From: a virus
DNA: 36,980 nt
IMG/VR virus record: IMGVR_UViG_3300017613_000280
Location: 1 to 36,980 of that record
Strand: one strand, 5' to 3'
The notes below the pieces were generated by a model, which did no database searches, was not told the DNA's origin, and worked only from the letters and a program-made list of their open reading frames with translations. The translations under genes and the position numbers were made by a program. Positions 6,849-11,134 of this stretch are shown piece by piece. Numbering within the stretch: the first letter of the stretch is position 1; every line of letters begins with the position of its first letter.

Positions 6849-6952
6849 CCCCCTGGGCTACATCCATCATAGTAACCGTGATCGTCAGCGCGATGGGCAT
6901 AGCTGGCCTCGTGCTGACCCTGCTAATGCTGATCGACATGGGTGCGCTGTGA
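6845..6952 (+). CDS. Small single-pass membrane protein, 35 aa
   Basis: A 35-codon ORF has ATGA overlap with the previous gene and GTGA overlap with the methyltransferase. It is almost entirely hydrophobic (TSIIVTVIVSAMGIAGLVLT, then LLMLIDMGAL). It forms a second membrane peptide in a 500-bp stretch. Function is unknown. Confidence 0.6.
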   Translation: MTPWATSIIVTVIVSAMGIAGLVLTLLMLIDMGAL

Positions 6953-7866
6953 GGGTTTTGGATCTATTCTCAGGCATTGGAGGCTTCAGCCTCGGCTTGG
7001 AACGTGCCGGGATGGAGACGGTTGCCTTCTGCGAGATAGAGGATTACCCGAGGCGGGTGCTGGCGAAGCATTGGCCTGATGTGCCGATTCACAAGGACAT
7101 ACGGGAGCTAGACGGTGAGCAATACAGAGGGACAGTTGACCTTATTTGCGGGGGCTACCCATGCCAGCCATTCAGTACAGCCGGGAAGCGAGCAGGCCAG
7201 GAAGATGACCGCCATCTCTGGCCGGAATATCTGCGACTTATACGAGAGATTCGGCCACGTTGGATCATTGGGGAAAATGTTGCTGGGCACATCTCAATGG
7301 GCCTCGACGATGTGTTGGCTGACATGGAAGGAGAGGGTTACGCCTGGGAAGCGTTTGTTATTCCAGCTTGTGCCGTCGATGCCAAGCACAGAAGGGATCG
7401 AGTGTGGATTGTGGCTAGGGACACCGACTGCCGCAATGTCGGAACGGAGCGAGACATTCAGAAAAGGCAGAGAATTGAATCCAGCAGAGTTTGTGAAGAT
7501 GTGGCCGACACCAAAAGCAGCAGACAGCAACCCAGCAGGCGGGGCGGCAATGGCACGCTACAACGAAAAAACGGGTCGCAGGACATTGATGACCGATGTG
7601 CAACTATGGCCAACACCGCAAGCGGCAGACAACCGGGACCGGGGCAATCTTTCAACACCGGCAATCAAGCGGCGGCAGGAAAAGGGCAAACAGTTGATGT
7701 TATCAATGTCAGTGAGCGAGAAATCTGGCCAACTGAACCCGCAGTGGGTCGAGTGGCTAATGGGATACCCTCCAGGGTGGACAGACTTAAAGGACTCGGA
7801 AACGCCGTAGTACCGCAAATTCCGGAGATCATCGGACGGGCGATTATGGAGATTGAGCATGGCTGA
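6949..7866 (+). CDS. DNA (cytosine-5) methyltransferase
   Basis: This is a 305-residue C5-MTase starting at a GTG that overlaps the upstream stop. Motif I is DLFSGIGGFSLGLE (5-18). Motif IV is GGYPCQPFS (68-76) with catalytic Cys72. Motif VI is ENV (109-111), motif VIII AKHRRDRVW (145-153), and motif X RLKGLGNAVVPQIPE near the C-terminus. It transfers methyl from S-adenosylmethionine to C5 of cytosine. Residues about 160-260 are low in complexity and variable, as in other phage Dcm proteins, and form the target-recognition part. There is no partner restriction gene, so it is an orphan, probably protecting phage DNA. A 231-codon ORF lies inside it in the +1 frame. Confidence 0.92.
   Translation: MRVLDLFSGIGGFSLGLERAGMETVAFCEIEDYPRRVLAKHWPDVPIHKDIRELDGEQYRGTVDLICGGYPCQPFSTAGKRAGQEDDRHLWPEYLRLIREIRPRWIIGENVAGHISMGLDDVLADMEGEGYAWEAFVIPACAVDAKHRRDRVWIVARDTDCRNVGTERDIQKRQRIESSRVCEDVADTKSSRQQPSRRGGNGTLQRKNGSQDIDDRCATMANTASGRQPGPGQSFNTGNQAAAGKGQTVDVINVSEREIWPTEPAVGRVANGIPSRVDRLKGLGNAVVPQIPEIIGRAIMEIEHG
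7115..7810 (+). other. Embedded +1-frame ORF inside the methyltransferase
   Basis: A 231-codon ORF lies wholly inside the methyltransferase. It holds patterned motifs: LTWKERVTPGKRLLFQLVPS, two WPTPxAAD repeats (KMWPTPKAAD, QLWPTPQAAD), and LNPQWVEWLMGYPPGWTDL. I recall similar predicted proteins in phage genomes. Here WLMGYPPGWTDL is the frame-shifted reading of the conserved region before motif X, and LFQLVPS of the region before motif VIII, so the pattern may be a passive echo of the enzyme. Whether it is translated is unknown. Confidence 0.3.
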
Positions 7867-8156: not shown

Positions 8157-8321
8157 ATGGACACAACTATCTACGTCAGGCTGGACGGCCCAGACAAACG
8201 GAAGCTCGAACGAATAGCAAAAGCACTGACGAAGCAGCATGGAATGAAGGTCGGCATGTCGCACGTTGTGCGCGGTTTCATCCATGAGGGGCTCGAGCGT
8301 GAGAAGAGCCGCAAAGGTTGA
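8157..8321 (+). CDS. Ribbon-helix-helix (Arc/CopG-type) protein, 54 aa
   Basis: The start is the ATG at 8157 behind GAGGT with a 6-base spacer. The fold pattern is a short N-terminal strand (TTIYVRLDG), helix 1 (PDKRKLERIAKALTKQ), a turn with GMKVGMS, and helix 2 (HVVRGFIHEGLEREK). This matches Arc/CopG dimeric repressors, where the strand enters the major groove. It is the best candidate in this block for binding one of the palindromic operators (8922-8934, 4960-4971 or 6056-6071). Its 3' end overlaps the nuclease gene. Confidence 0.65.
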   Translation: MDTTIYVRLDGPDKRKLERIAKALTKQHGMKVGMSHVVRGFIHEGLEREKSRKG

Positions 8322-8592
8322 TGAGAACCAGCGCAATATTGTCGCCGCACTCAGGGCGATCGGCTGCAGCGTAGCGGTTACGTCGGCTGTTGGCTCAGGG
8401 TTCCCGGACCTGGTCGTCGGGGATTGGGGCAAGACCTACCTGATGGAGGTCAAGCGTGGAGACAAGCCCCCGTCGAGGCGCGTACTGACCCAGGATCAGA
8501 TCGATTTTCACGCGTCTTGGCATGGGCAGATATGCGTGATCTGCACCGTCGCCGAGGCGATTTCATTCATCAGTAGAGAGAGAGCAAAATGA
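8299..8592 (+). CDS. VRR-NUC-type nuclease
   Basis: A GTG start at 8299 behind GAGGGG gives 97 residues (VRRAAKVDENQRNIVAAL). The PD-(D/E)XK core is clear: GFPDLVVG with Asp37, then YLMEVKRG with Glu50 and Lys52, then LTQDQIDFHASW. This fits the small phage VRR-NUC family, which cuts branched or damaged DNA in replication and recombination. It sits upstream of the Erf and YqaJ-type genes and overlaps the RHH gene by 23 bases. Confidence 0.78.
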   Translation: MRRAAKVDENQRNIVAALRAIGCSVAVTSAVGSGFPDLVVGDWGKTYLMEVKRGDKPPSRRVLTQDQIDFHASWHGQICVICTVAEAISFISRERAK

Positions 8593-9172: not shown

Positions 9173-9385
9173 ATGAACGCACTCTACGACGACGAATACG
9201 AGGGCAGGCCGGAGGCTCTCGATGCGGCACTTGGAAACACCGAATGGCTACGTTGGTTTGACCACGCACCAGACAGCTGTATCTCTGATATGGCCTATGG
9301 CGCACACCAGGGAGCAACGCCACTCAGCCCAGAGTGGTACTACTACTGGTTCGTTTACGAAGCATTTTTTGGAGCACCTTCATAA
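9173..9385 (+). CDS. Hypothetical acidic protein, 70 aa
   Basis: The preferred start is the ATG at 9173 behind GGAG. The protein is acidic and aromatic-rich (DDEYEGRPEALDAALGNTEW, then SPEWYYYWFVYEAFFG). No family is recognised. Its stop overlaps the Erf start as TAATG. Acidic aromatic small proteins made early are sometimes DNA mimics or host inhibitors; that is speculation here. Confidence 0.58.
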   Translation: MNALYDDEYEGRPEALDAALGNTEWLRWFDHAPDSCISDMAYGAHQGATPLSPEWYYYWFVYEAFFGAPS

Positions 9386-10116
9386 TGACAAACAAAGACA
9401 TCACCGCCGCACAAAACACCCTGCCAGTAGCACCGGCTGACCAGACCTTCGCGCTTATGCAGCAGGGGATCAAAGACGGCATCAGCACCGAAAACATGGA
9501 AAAGCTGATGTCCATGCAAGAGCGCATCATGGACAGGAACGCAAAGTCGGACTTTGTCGTCGCCCTAACTGAGTTCCAAGCGCGTTGCCCAGCGATCGCC
9601 AAGCGTCACTCGGTCAAGGATAGAGGAGGGCGCCTGATGTATAAGTTCGCGCCTCTCGAGGATATCGTCGAGCAGATCAAGGGTCTGCTGTCAGATCTGG
9701 GTCTGTCGTATTCGTTCGATTCCGATGTGCAGCCCAACGGAGCTATCGAGGTAATCTGCGTCGTCCGGCACCGCTCAGGGCACCAAGAGCGCACCAGCGT
9801 GTTCATTCCTGCAACCCAAGGGCACAACACCAATGCGAGCCAGAATATGGCAATACAATTGACGTACGGAAAACGGTACGCACTGATAGGCGCCCTTGGA
9901 ATCGTGACTGCCGATCAGGATCAGGATGGCAACGCTGAGAAACTGCGCCCGATCAACGCGCAGCAGGCCGCTGACCTGACCGAACTGGCAGAAGAGGTCG
10001 GCGCCGACCAGGCCAAGTTCCTGAAGTACCTCGGCGCACGGTCCTTCGCTGACATCCCGGAGCGGGACTACCACAGGGCTGTGTCGGCACTCGAGGCAAA
10101 AAGGAGCGGATCATGA
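9385..10116 (+). CDS. erf: Erf-family single-strand annealing protein
   Basis: The start is the ATG at 9385, giving 243 residues. The Erf core is clear: SDFVVALTEFQARCPAI, then VKDRGGRLMYKFAPLEDIVEQIKGLL, GLSYSFDSDV, IEVICVVRHRSGHQE, and QNMAIQLTYGKRYALIGALGI with TADQDQDGN. Erf proteins form rings on single-stranded DNA and anneal complementary strands in phage recombination and genome circularisation. A separate C-terminal helical part (ADLTELAEEVGADQAKFLKYL) is also common. The YqaJ-type exonuclease two genes downstream would supply the single strands. Confidence 0.88.
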   Translation: MTNKDITAAQNTLPVAPADQTFALMQQGIKDGISTENMEKLMSMQERIMDRNAKSDFVVALTEFQARCPAIAKRHSVKDRGGRLMYKFAPLEDIVEQIKGLLSDLGLSYSFDSDVQPNGAIEVICVVRHRSGHQERTSVFIPATQGHNTNASQNMAIQLTYGKRYALIGALGIVTADQDQDGNAEKLRPINAQQAADLTELAEEVGADQAKFLKYLGARSFADIPERDYHRAVSALEAKRSGS

Positions 10117-10517
10117 GCGACCAAGACACTCTCGACAGGTTCAAAAAGCACGGCCAAACCGCCAGCTATCACTTTGCGGATGACTCCGGGTCGGAGTGGG
10201 GTCACGGCAATAAAGAAAAAGCCCTTGCGCTCGAGCTGTTCGACGCGAACGAAAACCTGCAGCCACAGATGCGCGAGCTCGCCAAGGAGCATTTTCTCTG
10301 GAGTCTGGCATCTGAGCGCCCGCGCTTTGCAGAGGTCAGCTGTTCCCAGTGCGGAGGCACATTCGGGCCTGGAGATAGCGGGTTCTCGCACTGCGAGGAT
10401 CATCGCGGGCACCTGCACCGCAAGCAGGGGATTAAGGGCACGCTGTACTCCCCCAACGGCAACGTCTGGTTTTCGACCATTCGCGCAGCCCAAGAGGCTC
10501 GAAGGAAGCTGGCATGA
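10113..10517 (+). CDS. Hypothetical protein with a zinc-finger-like segment, 134 aa
   Basis: The ATG at 10113 overlaps the erf stop. Residues 77-96 read CSQCGGTFGPGDSGFSHCED followed by His, giving CxxC...C..H that could bind zinc. The N-terminus is acidic and helical. It lies between the annealing protein and the exonuclease and is coupled to both, so it may assist recombination. No family is known to me. Confidence 0.65.
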   Translation: MSDQDTLDRFKKHGQTASYHFADDSGSEWGHGNKEKALALELFDANENLQPQMRELAKEHFLWSLASERPRFAEVSCSQCGGTFGPGDSGFSHCEDHRGHLHRKQGIKGTLYSPNGNVWFSTIRAAQEARRKLA

Positions 10518-11134
10518 TCATCGTCAAAGACCTGGTGCAGGGCTCGGATGAGTGGATCAGAACCCGTCTGGGCGTCCTGACGGCCTCTCAGGTGTCCAGG
10601 CTTGTCACCGCATCGGGTAAGCTTTCCGCACAGCGTAGCGGCCTTGTAGCGACTCTGGCGGCAGAATCCATGCTGGGGGAGCCCGTCGATGACTTTGCCG
10701 GGAACTATTGGACTGATCGCGGCTCAGAGCTCGAAGGCGAGGCTGGCGCATATTTTGCGCTACAGACCGGCCATGACCCTGTCGCTGTGGGTTTTGTCTA
10801 CCGCGACGATGGGCAGGACTGCGGCTGCTCACCGGATTGGTTGGTGCCTGATGGCGATGGCTGGCTGTGCGGCGTTGAGGTCAAGTGCCCGAAGGCCAGC
10901 ACCCATGTCGAGTACCTGCTCGACGACAAGGCCAGCAAGTACACCCAGCAGGTGCAGTTCAGCCTCTGGGTCACGGGGTTGCCAGCCTGGTACTTTATGA
11001 GCTACTTCCCCGGCCTGCCACCCCTGCTCAAGCGCGTCGAGCCCGATCCGAAATGGCAGGGGATCTTCGATAAGGTCGTCCCAGAGTTCCTGGCCGAACT
11101 CGCAGAGGCAAAAGCGAAACTGGAGGCAATGTAA
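10514..11134 (+). CDS. YqaJ-type (lambda Exo-like) exonuclease
   Basis: This 206-residue nuclease has a PD-(D/E)XK core. QGSDEWIRTRLGVLTASQVS (9-28) is the family N-terminus. RGSELEGEA (69-77) is the conserved helix. CGCSPDWLV holds Asp108, and GVEVKCP holds Glu122 and Lys124. QQVQFSLWVTG (about 145-155) is the conserved helix after the core. It should degrade one strand of duplex DNA 5' to 3', working with the Erf protein as a two-part recombinase like Red alpha/beta. Its stop overlaps the next ATG as TAATG. Confidence 0.88.
   Translation: MIIVKDLVQGSDEWIRTRLGVLTASQVSRLVTASGKLSAQRSGLVATLAAESMLGEPVDDFAGNYWTDRGSELEGEAGAYFALQTGHDPVAVGFVYRDDGQDCGCSPDWLVPDGDGWLCGVEVKCPKASTHVEYLLDDKASKYTQQVQFSLWVTGLPAWYFMSYFPGLPPLLKRVEPDPKWQGIFDKVVPEFLAELAEAKAKLEAM

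Follow-up and report, generated by a model that had tools for sequence, protein, structure and literature searches.

The methyltransferase locus of the virus studied here very probably encodes a two-subunit cytosine-5 DNA methyltransferase made from overlapping reading frames. The window, meaning the whole stretch of DNA that was analysed, is a 36,980-base IMG/VR virus record in which a P22-like portal gene is also present. An initial annotation had drawn attention to a 231-codon ORF in the +1 frame inside the methyltransferase. This ORF lies exactly where it was placed, with WPTPKAAD, WPTPQAAD and LNPQWVEWLMGYPPGWTDL all present, and it appears to be a real overlapping gene, both frames being under coding constraint. 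The features of the locus are:

6949-7866, plus strand: alpha subunit of the predicted cytosine-5 DNA methyltransferase, 305 codons with a GTG start, holding motifs I-VIII and X and without motif IX
7115-7810, plus strand: predicted beta subunit, a 231-codon +1-frame ORF with a GTG start, comprising N-terminal helices and a hairpin, WPTP recognition units and motif IX
7103-7107, plus strand: putative Shine-Dalgarno sequence GGGAG, read from the sequence, 7 nt 5' of the beta GTG and within alpha Arg-Glu codons
7115-7414, plus strand: zone A, beta residues 1-100 lying over alpha motifs IV-VIII, with conservation in both frames
7415-7501, plus strand: recognition unit 1 in the beta frame, LGTPTAAMSERSETFRKGRELNPAEFVKM, a unit common to loci L200 and L014
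7502-7606, plus strand: recognition unit 2 in the beta frame, translated as WPTPKAAD and onward; substitutions in zone B show a beta-coding pattern
7607-7732, plus strand: recognition unit 3 in the beta frame, beginning WPTPQAADNRDRGN, shared more widely than units 1 and 2
7733-7789, plus strand: motif IX in the beta frame, LNPQWVEWLMGYPPGWTDL, near-invariant in 52 relatives
7783-7818, plus strand: motif X in the alpha frame, RLKGLGNAVVPQ, with R279, L283, G284, N285 and P289 invariant in 52 relatives

The openness of the +1 frame was compared with a null model in which synonymous codons were shuffled within alpha while the alpha protein was kept, in 10,000 trials. For the window alone, a +1 opening of this length arose in 14 of the 10,000 shuffles, and the beta span, for which 5.9 stops are expected, was stop-free in one. 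A scan of viral contigs with the beta query gave 80 loci, in all of which both frames are open across the region, with the exception of L041, where beta is split by a single stop. The initial annotation had named stop codons in relatives as evidence that would speak against a coding +1 frame; the beta span of 60 non-redundant relatives holds none, against 359 expected, these spans having been defined as open ORFs from the beta query. The +2 frame of the same 60 sequences has 863 stops where 901 are expected. Constraint at the fourfold-degenerate sites of alpha provides an independent test that was not selected for openness. On the 5' side of the beta start, third-base identity between sequences at these sites is 0.37. 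Within beta it is higher: three parts of the overlap with motifs IV-VIII give 0.60, 0.67 and 0.69, the recognition segment gives 0.68 and the surroundings of motifs IX and X give 0.84. Past the beta stop it drops to 0.33. The reduction of synonymous variation that had been proposed as a check on the +1 frame is thus seen throughout beta and not on either side of it, and its edges are sharp and match the beta start and the beta stop. Together with the stop counts, this strongly supports dual coding, one of the two outcomes envisaged at the outset. For the window's family a chance opening or echo of the enzyme's own conservation was rejected on the synonymous shuffles, the fourfold sites and the phases of substitution.

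The two frames do not carry the same burden along the overlap. Over motifs IV-VIII the alpha and beta proteins are both conserved, and in zone A the entropy of alpha third positions drops from 1.54 to 0.94-1.11. Between motifs VIII and X, alpha is nearly unconserved, at 2.8-3.3 bits, whereas beta is better conserved, at 2.4 bits. In 397 local alignments of the recognition segment between loci, pairs that are not independent of one another, the frequency of change is 0.148 at the first, 0.107 at the second and 0.408 at the third beta codon position. Fast change at beta third positions indicates that this segment codes in the beta frame, the opposite of an alpha-coding pattern. In this interval, as far as substitutions in the aligned sequences can tell, beta is the selected protein and alpha its echo. 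For the WPTP part of the ORF, the second outcome envisaged, an annotation artefact mirroring the enzyme, therefore had the direction reversed.

Alpha itself is readily recognised as an enzyme. It matches Pfam PF00145 over residues 1-202 (E 3.9e-44) and, by profile, M.HhaI over residues 12-175, which span motifs I-VIII (E 1.2e-29). Its AlphaFold model is confident over approximately residues 1-177 and 284-305, and the confident core resembles M.HhaI and M.HaeIII in Foldseek comparisons. Across most of residues 180-283 pLDDT falls below 50, and most of this stretch is, as modelled, disordered filler at the position of the target recognition domain (TRD). A canonical motif IX pattern is absent from frame 0 in the 38 loci that were fetched with alpha alone; in 37 of them another frame matches beta. 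Since its own chain is without motif IX, alpha is classed as one subunit and not as a complete enzyme. The remaining locus, L115:26-839, is the lone exception: its gene is alpha-like and has motif X, frame 0 shows no motif IX pattern, and none of the frames matches beta. It may have another partner or another form of motif IX.

Beta matches phrog_1008, labelled 'DNA methyltransferase', over residues 6-225 of 231 (E 2.4e-41). The K1G, Rialto and Shelly phage betas match this family too. The C-terminus of the window's beta, LNPQWVEWLMGYPPGWT, is near-invariant in 52 relatives. The C-terminal segment LNPQWVEWLMGYPPGW stands in for the motif IX that frame 0 lacks. The assignment of LNPQWVEWLMGYP as a putative motif IX follows from its position, its resemblance and the existence of in-frame monomers rather than from structure. 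In Rothia phage Spartoi and Mycobacterium phage Aggie a single frame carries WPTP-like units (MPTP, LPTP), motif IX and motif X, and the motif IX segment, LNPEFSEWMMG or AAAFPEWMMG, lies directly 5' of motif X. One Spartoi unit, TPNTMD...NLREEV, shares 52% identity with a unit from the beta of L062 (E 2.5e-6). The order of elements in the monomers and this common unit identify the WPTP stretch and LNPQWVEWLMG as a recognition domain followed by motif IX. Betas contain between 0 and 5 WPTP-like units, most often 2-3, spaced at a median of 36 residues, and the units reappear across betas in varying combinations; unit 3 of the window has 27 ORF matches at E <= 1e-3 among the loci collected, with identity of up to 79%. 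The WPTP units may be exchangeable specificity modules. A profile search found no relative of beta in the PDB, no Pfam family was matched by members of the beta alignment, and the AlphaFold model of beta alone is of low confidence (pLDDT 60). The motif content of alpha (I-VIII and X) and of beta (TRD and IX) is complementary, as would be expected of a nested split C5 methyltransferase.

In 48 of 60 relatives, against 15.1 expected, a Shine-Dalgarno sequence followed by a start codon lies close to the aligned position. This conserved signal, and the fact that the +1 constraint begins there, favour independent initiation over frameshifting. We suggest that ribosomes initiating at 6949 would synthesise alpha, which contains the AdoMet site, the PCQ catalytic loop, all motifs as far as VIII and also motif X, and that others, initiating independently at the internal GTG at 7115 behind its own Shine-Dalgarno sequence, would synthesise beta, which contains the recognition units along with motif IX. 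These chains would then join as one enzyme with the usual order of motifs, and the only demand on frame 0 from motif VIII to motif X would be to remain free of stops, allowing motif X to be made. Both the translation of beta and the assembly of a heterodimer are probable on these comparisons. The overlap would exist because the +1 frame provides the motif IX and the recognition domain that frame 0 lacks.

It could be argued that every overlap sits on conserved alpha motifs, that alpha conservation by itself yields some +1 similarity, and that long +1 openings are expected by chance in GC-rich genes such as those of the Aggie type, so that the ORF might be open merely through conserved enzyme motifs and codon bias and never be translated. 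An echo of this kind should behave as the alpha-preserving null does, and it is at odds with the complete lack of stops, with fourfold constraint confined to the ORF and with an alpha that is nearly unconstrained precisely where beta is conserved; it is the least probable of the alternatives considered and can practically be set aside. Programmed frameshifting is also very improbable, if less so than any other. A single ribosome might move from frame 0 to +1 past motif VIII and return before motif X to give one full-length enzyme, and indeed the motifs are colinear in the DNA (I-VIII, TRD, IX, X), two shifts would restore a monomer, and monomeric relatives are known among the loci. The +1 frame is, however, constrained from the conserved Shine-Dalgarno sequence and start onward, some 300 nt upstream of any shift, in a region that such a ribosome would leave untranslated in +1.

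Between these two in probability, and likewise very doubtful, is the idea that beta is a genuine nested protein with some other function, for instance a regulator or inhibitor of an enzyme that is active by itself. Enzymes of the streptococcal type, which pair a constrained +1 frame with a frame-0 protein retaining motif IX, lend it some credence, but an alpha without motif IX and without an ordered recognition domain should not recognise DNA alone. A two-subunit methyltransferase is thus the reading that we prefer.

The beta gene of M.EcoHK31I is likewise nested in an alternative frame. In that enzyme the larger subunit has motifs I-VIII and X and the smaller subunit has motif IX (PMC3404938), the same division as in the window, M.EcoHK31I having been compared by its description. 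The predicted beta of the window, coded within alpha in another frame and with a putative start signal of its own, is in keeping with the M.EcoHK31I type. The recognition domain of the window is in beta, alpha being disordered there, whereas that of M.EcoHK31I has been placed in the larger subunit (PMC3404938), which is a published prediction. We take this to be a matter of detail, and our claim that the locus works like M.EcoHK31I is firmer than any claim that the two are homologous. M.AquI holds motifs I-X jointly in two chains (PMC3404938). The window differs from it in having motif X in alpha and genes that are fully nested, while two loci, L162:2979-4086 and L174:2448-3522, show an M.AquI-like order: alpha ends past motif VIII, motif X is in the beta frame, and beta consists of the TRD, IX and X. 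The C5 methyltransferase of Streptococcus phage MM1 is annotated as an alpha with a nested beta ORF, as in the window, and its 5093-type homologue has a weak match to phrog_1008 (E 1.2e-4). In MM1, unlike the window, frame 0 retains motif IX (LTPRECWRLQGFP) and beta stops before the recognition domain. PHROG 1008, which resembles the window beta by profile, and PHROG 16143 contain the betas; the label of PHROG 1008 is silent on a nested second subunit. What was already known, then, is the motif division of M.EcoHK31I, the annotated subunits of MM1 and the PHROG families; the new elements are the tests for selection, the placing of the recognition domain in beta, the distribution over many phyla and the constrained +1 frame in three phage groups that keep motif IX. 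The literature searched contained neither this breadth nor the evidence for selection, although such absence is no proof of novelty.

The nested arrangement is known from a few enzymes, yet it occurs across phages and prophages of many phyla, mostly unannotated. A scan of GTDB gave 80 loci from many bacterial phyla, as judged by record titles, and phage records with the arrangement include Paenibacillus larvae phages, Escherichia phage K1G, Burkholderia phage BcepC6B and Klebsiella phages. On the question whether WPTP proteins always lie inside dcm genes, the answer is yes for 78 of the 80 GTDB loci, where beta is nested in +1; in the other two beta starts inside alpha and extends beyond it, and some Mycobacterium and Rothia phages have WPTP units in the enzyme's own frame. 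Annotation is uneven: phage Shelly has a hypothetical 'g55 internal gene', K1G has both subunits, and an E. coli ST131 prophage has alpha only. In E. coli XYEH3314 a SEN5-type methyltransferase (L212:1489-2658) is annotated as two pseudogene pieces, and is a methylation gene decaying within a prophage. A survey that started from the genomes of related loci and took in about 60 chromosomal C5 methyltransferases of two phyla found no such nested ORF or signal, bar one streptococcal-type gene.

Downstream of the methyltransferase in the window are early recombination genes for an Erf-like annealing protein and a RecE-like exonuclease (9334-10116 and 10514-11134). A small ORF at 8266-8592 is VRR-NUC nuclease-like by eye and has no Pfam match; VRR-NUC genes adjoin the methyltransferase in E. 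coli prophage relatives. No restriction enzyme gene was recognised beside the methyltransferase, the role of which may be to shield phage DNA from host restriction.

Enzymes that keep motif IX in frame 0 extended our view of the nested frame. In the canonical controls (L205, L206 and L209) motif IX is kept and the +1 frame is broken downstream. In L205, L207, L208 and their relatives (L216-L338) motif IX is again in frame 0, and over motifs from about IV/VI to VIII the +1 frame is constrained and holds no stops. The streptococcal 5093-type enzymes have a +1 ORF of about 140-190 codons, the length of which exceeds expectation in 35 of 35 non-redundant loci (p ~0.01 or less). Fourfold identity is 0.48-0.89 within this ORF; elsewhere it is mostly about 0.31-0.45, and 0.5-0.6 near motif IX. 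The Aggie and Spartoi types show similar fourfold constraint, from 20 and 10 sequences respectively; their ORF-length test was not significant, and for these two types the constraint is a matter of fourfold sites. In L207, of the Aggie type, WPTP-like units are found in both frames, the first in +1 and the later ones with IX and X in frame 0. A relative, Streptococcus phage SpSL1, reportedly methylates its own genome at RCGRC (PMC6755750), which indicates that an enzyme of this architecture is active. On balance it seems likely that nested +1 partners are a common and overlooked part of phage-type C5 methyltransferases as a whole and not just of the split ones, with beta having a role of its own and, in the window's family, having also taken over the TRD and motif IX.

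The question raised by the initial annotation is settled in favour of real overlapping genes. Pipelines often overlook beta or label it hypothetical, and many phage C5 methyltransferases are therefore logged as one gene where two are needed. Cloning the annotated gene alone with silent recoding would wreck beta, and could yield a false 'inactive' result. The family is a large natural set in which one DNA segment is selected in two frames, and its monomeric relatives display the arrangement before or after the split.
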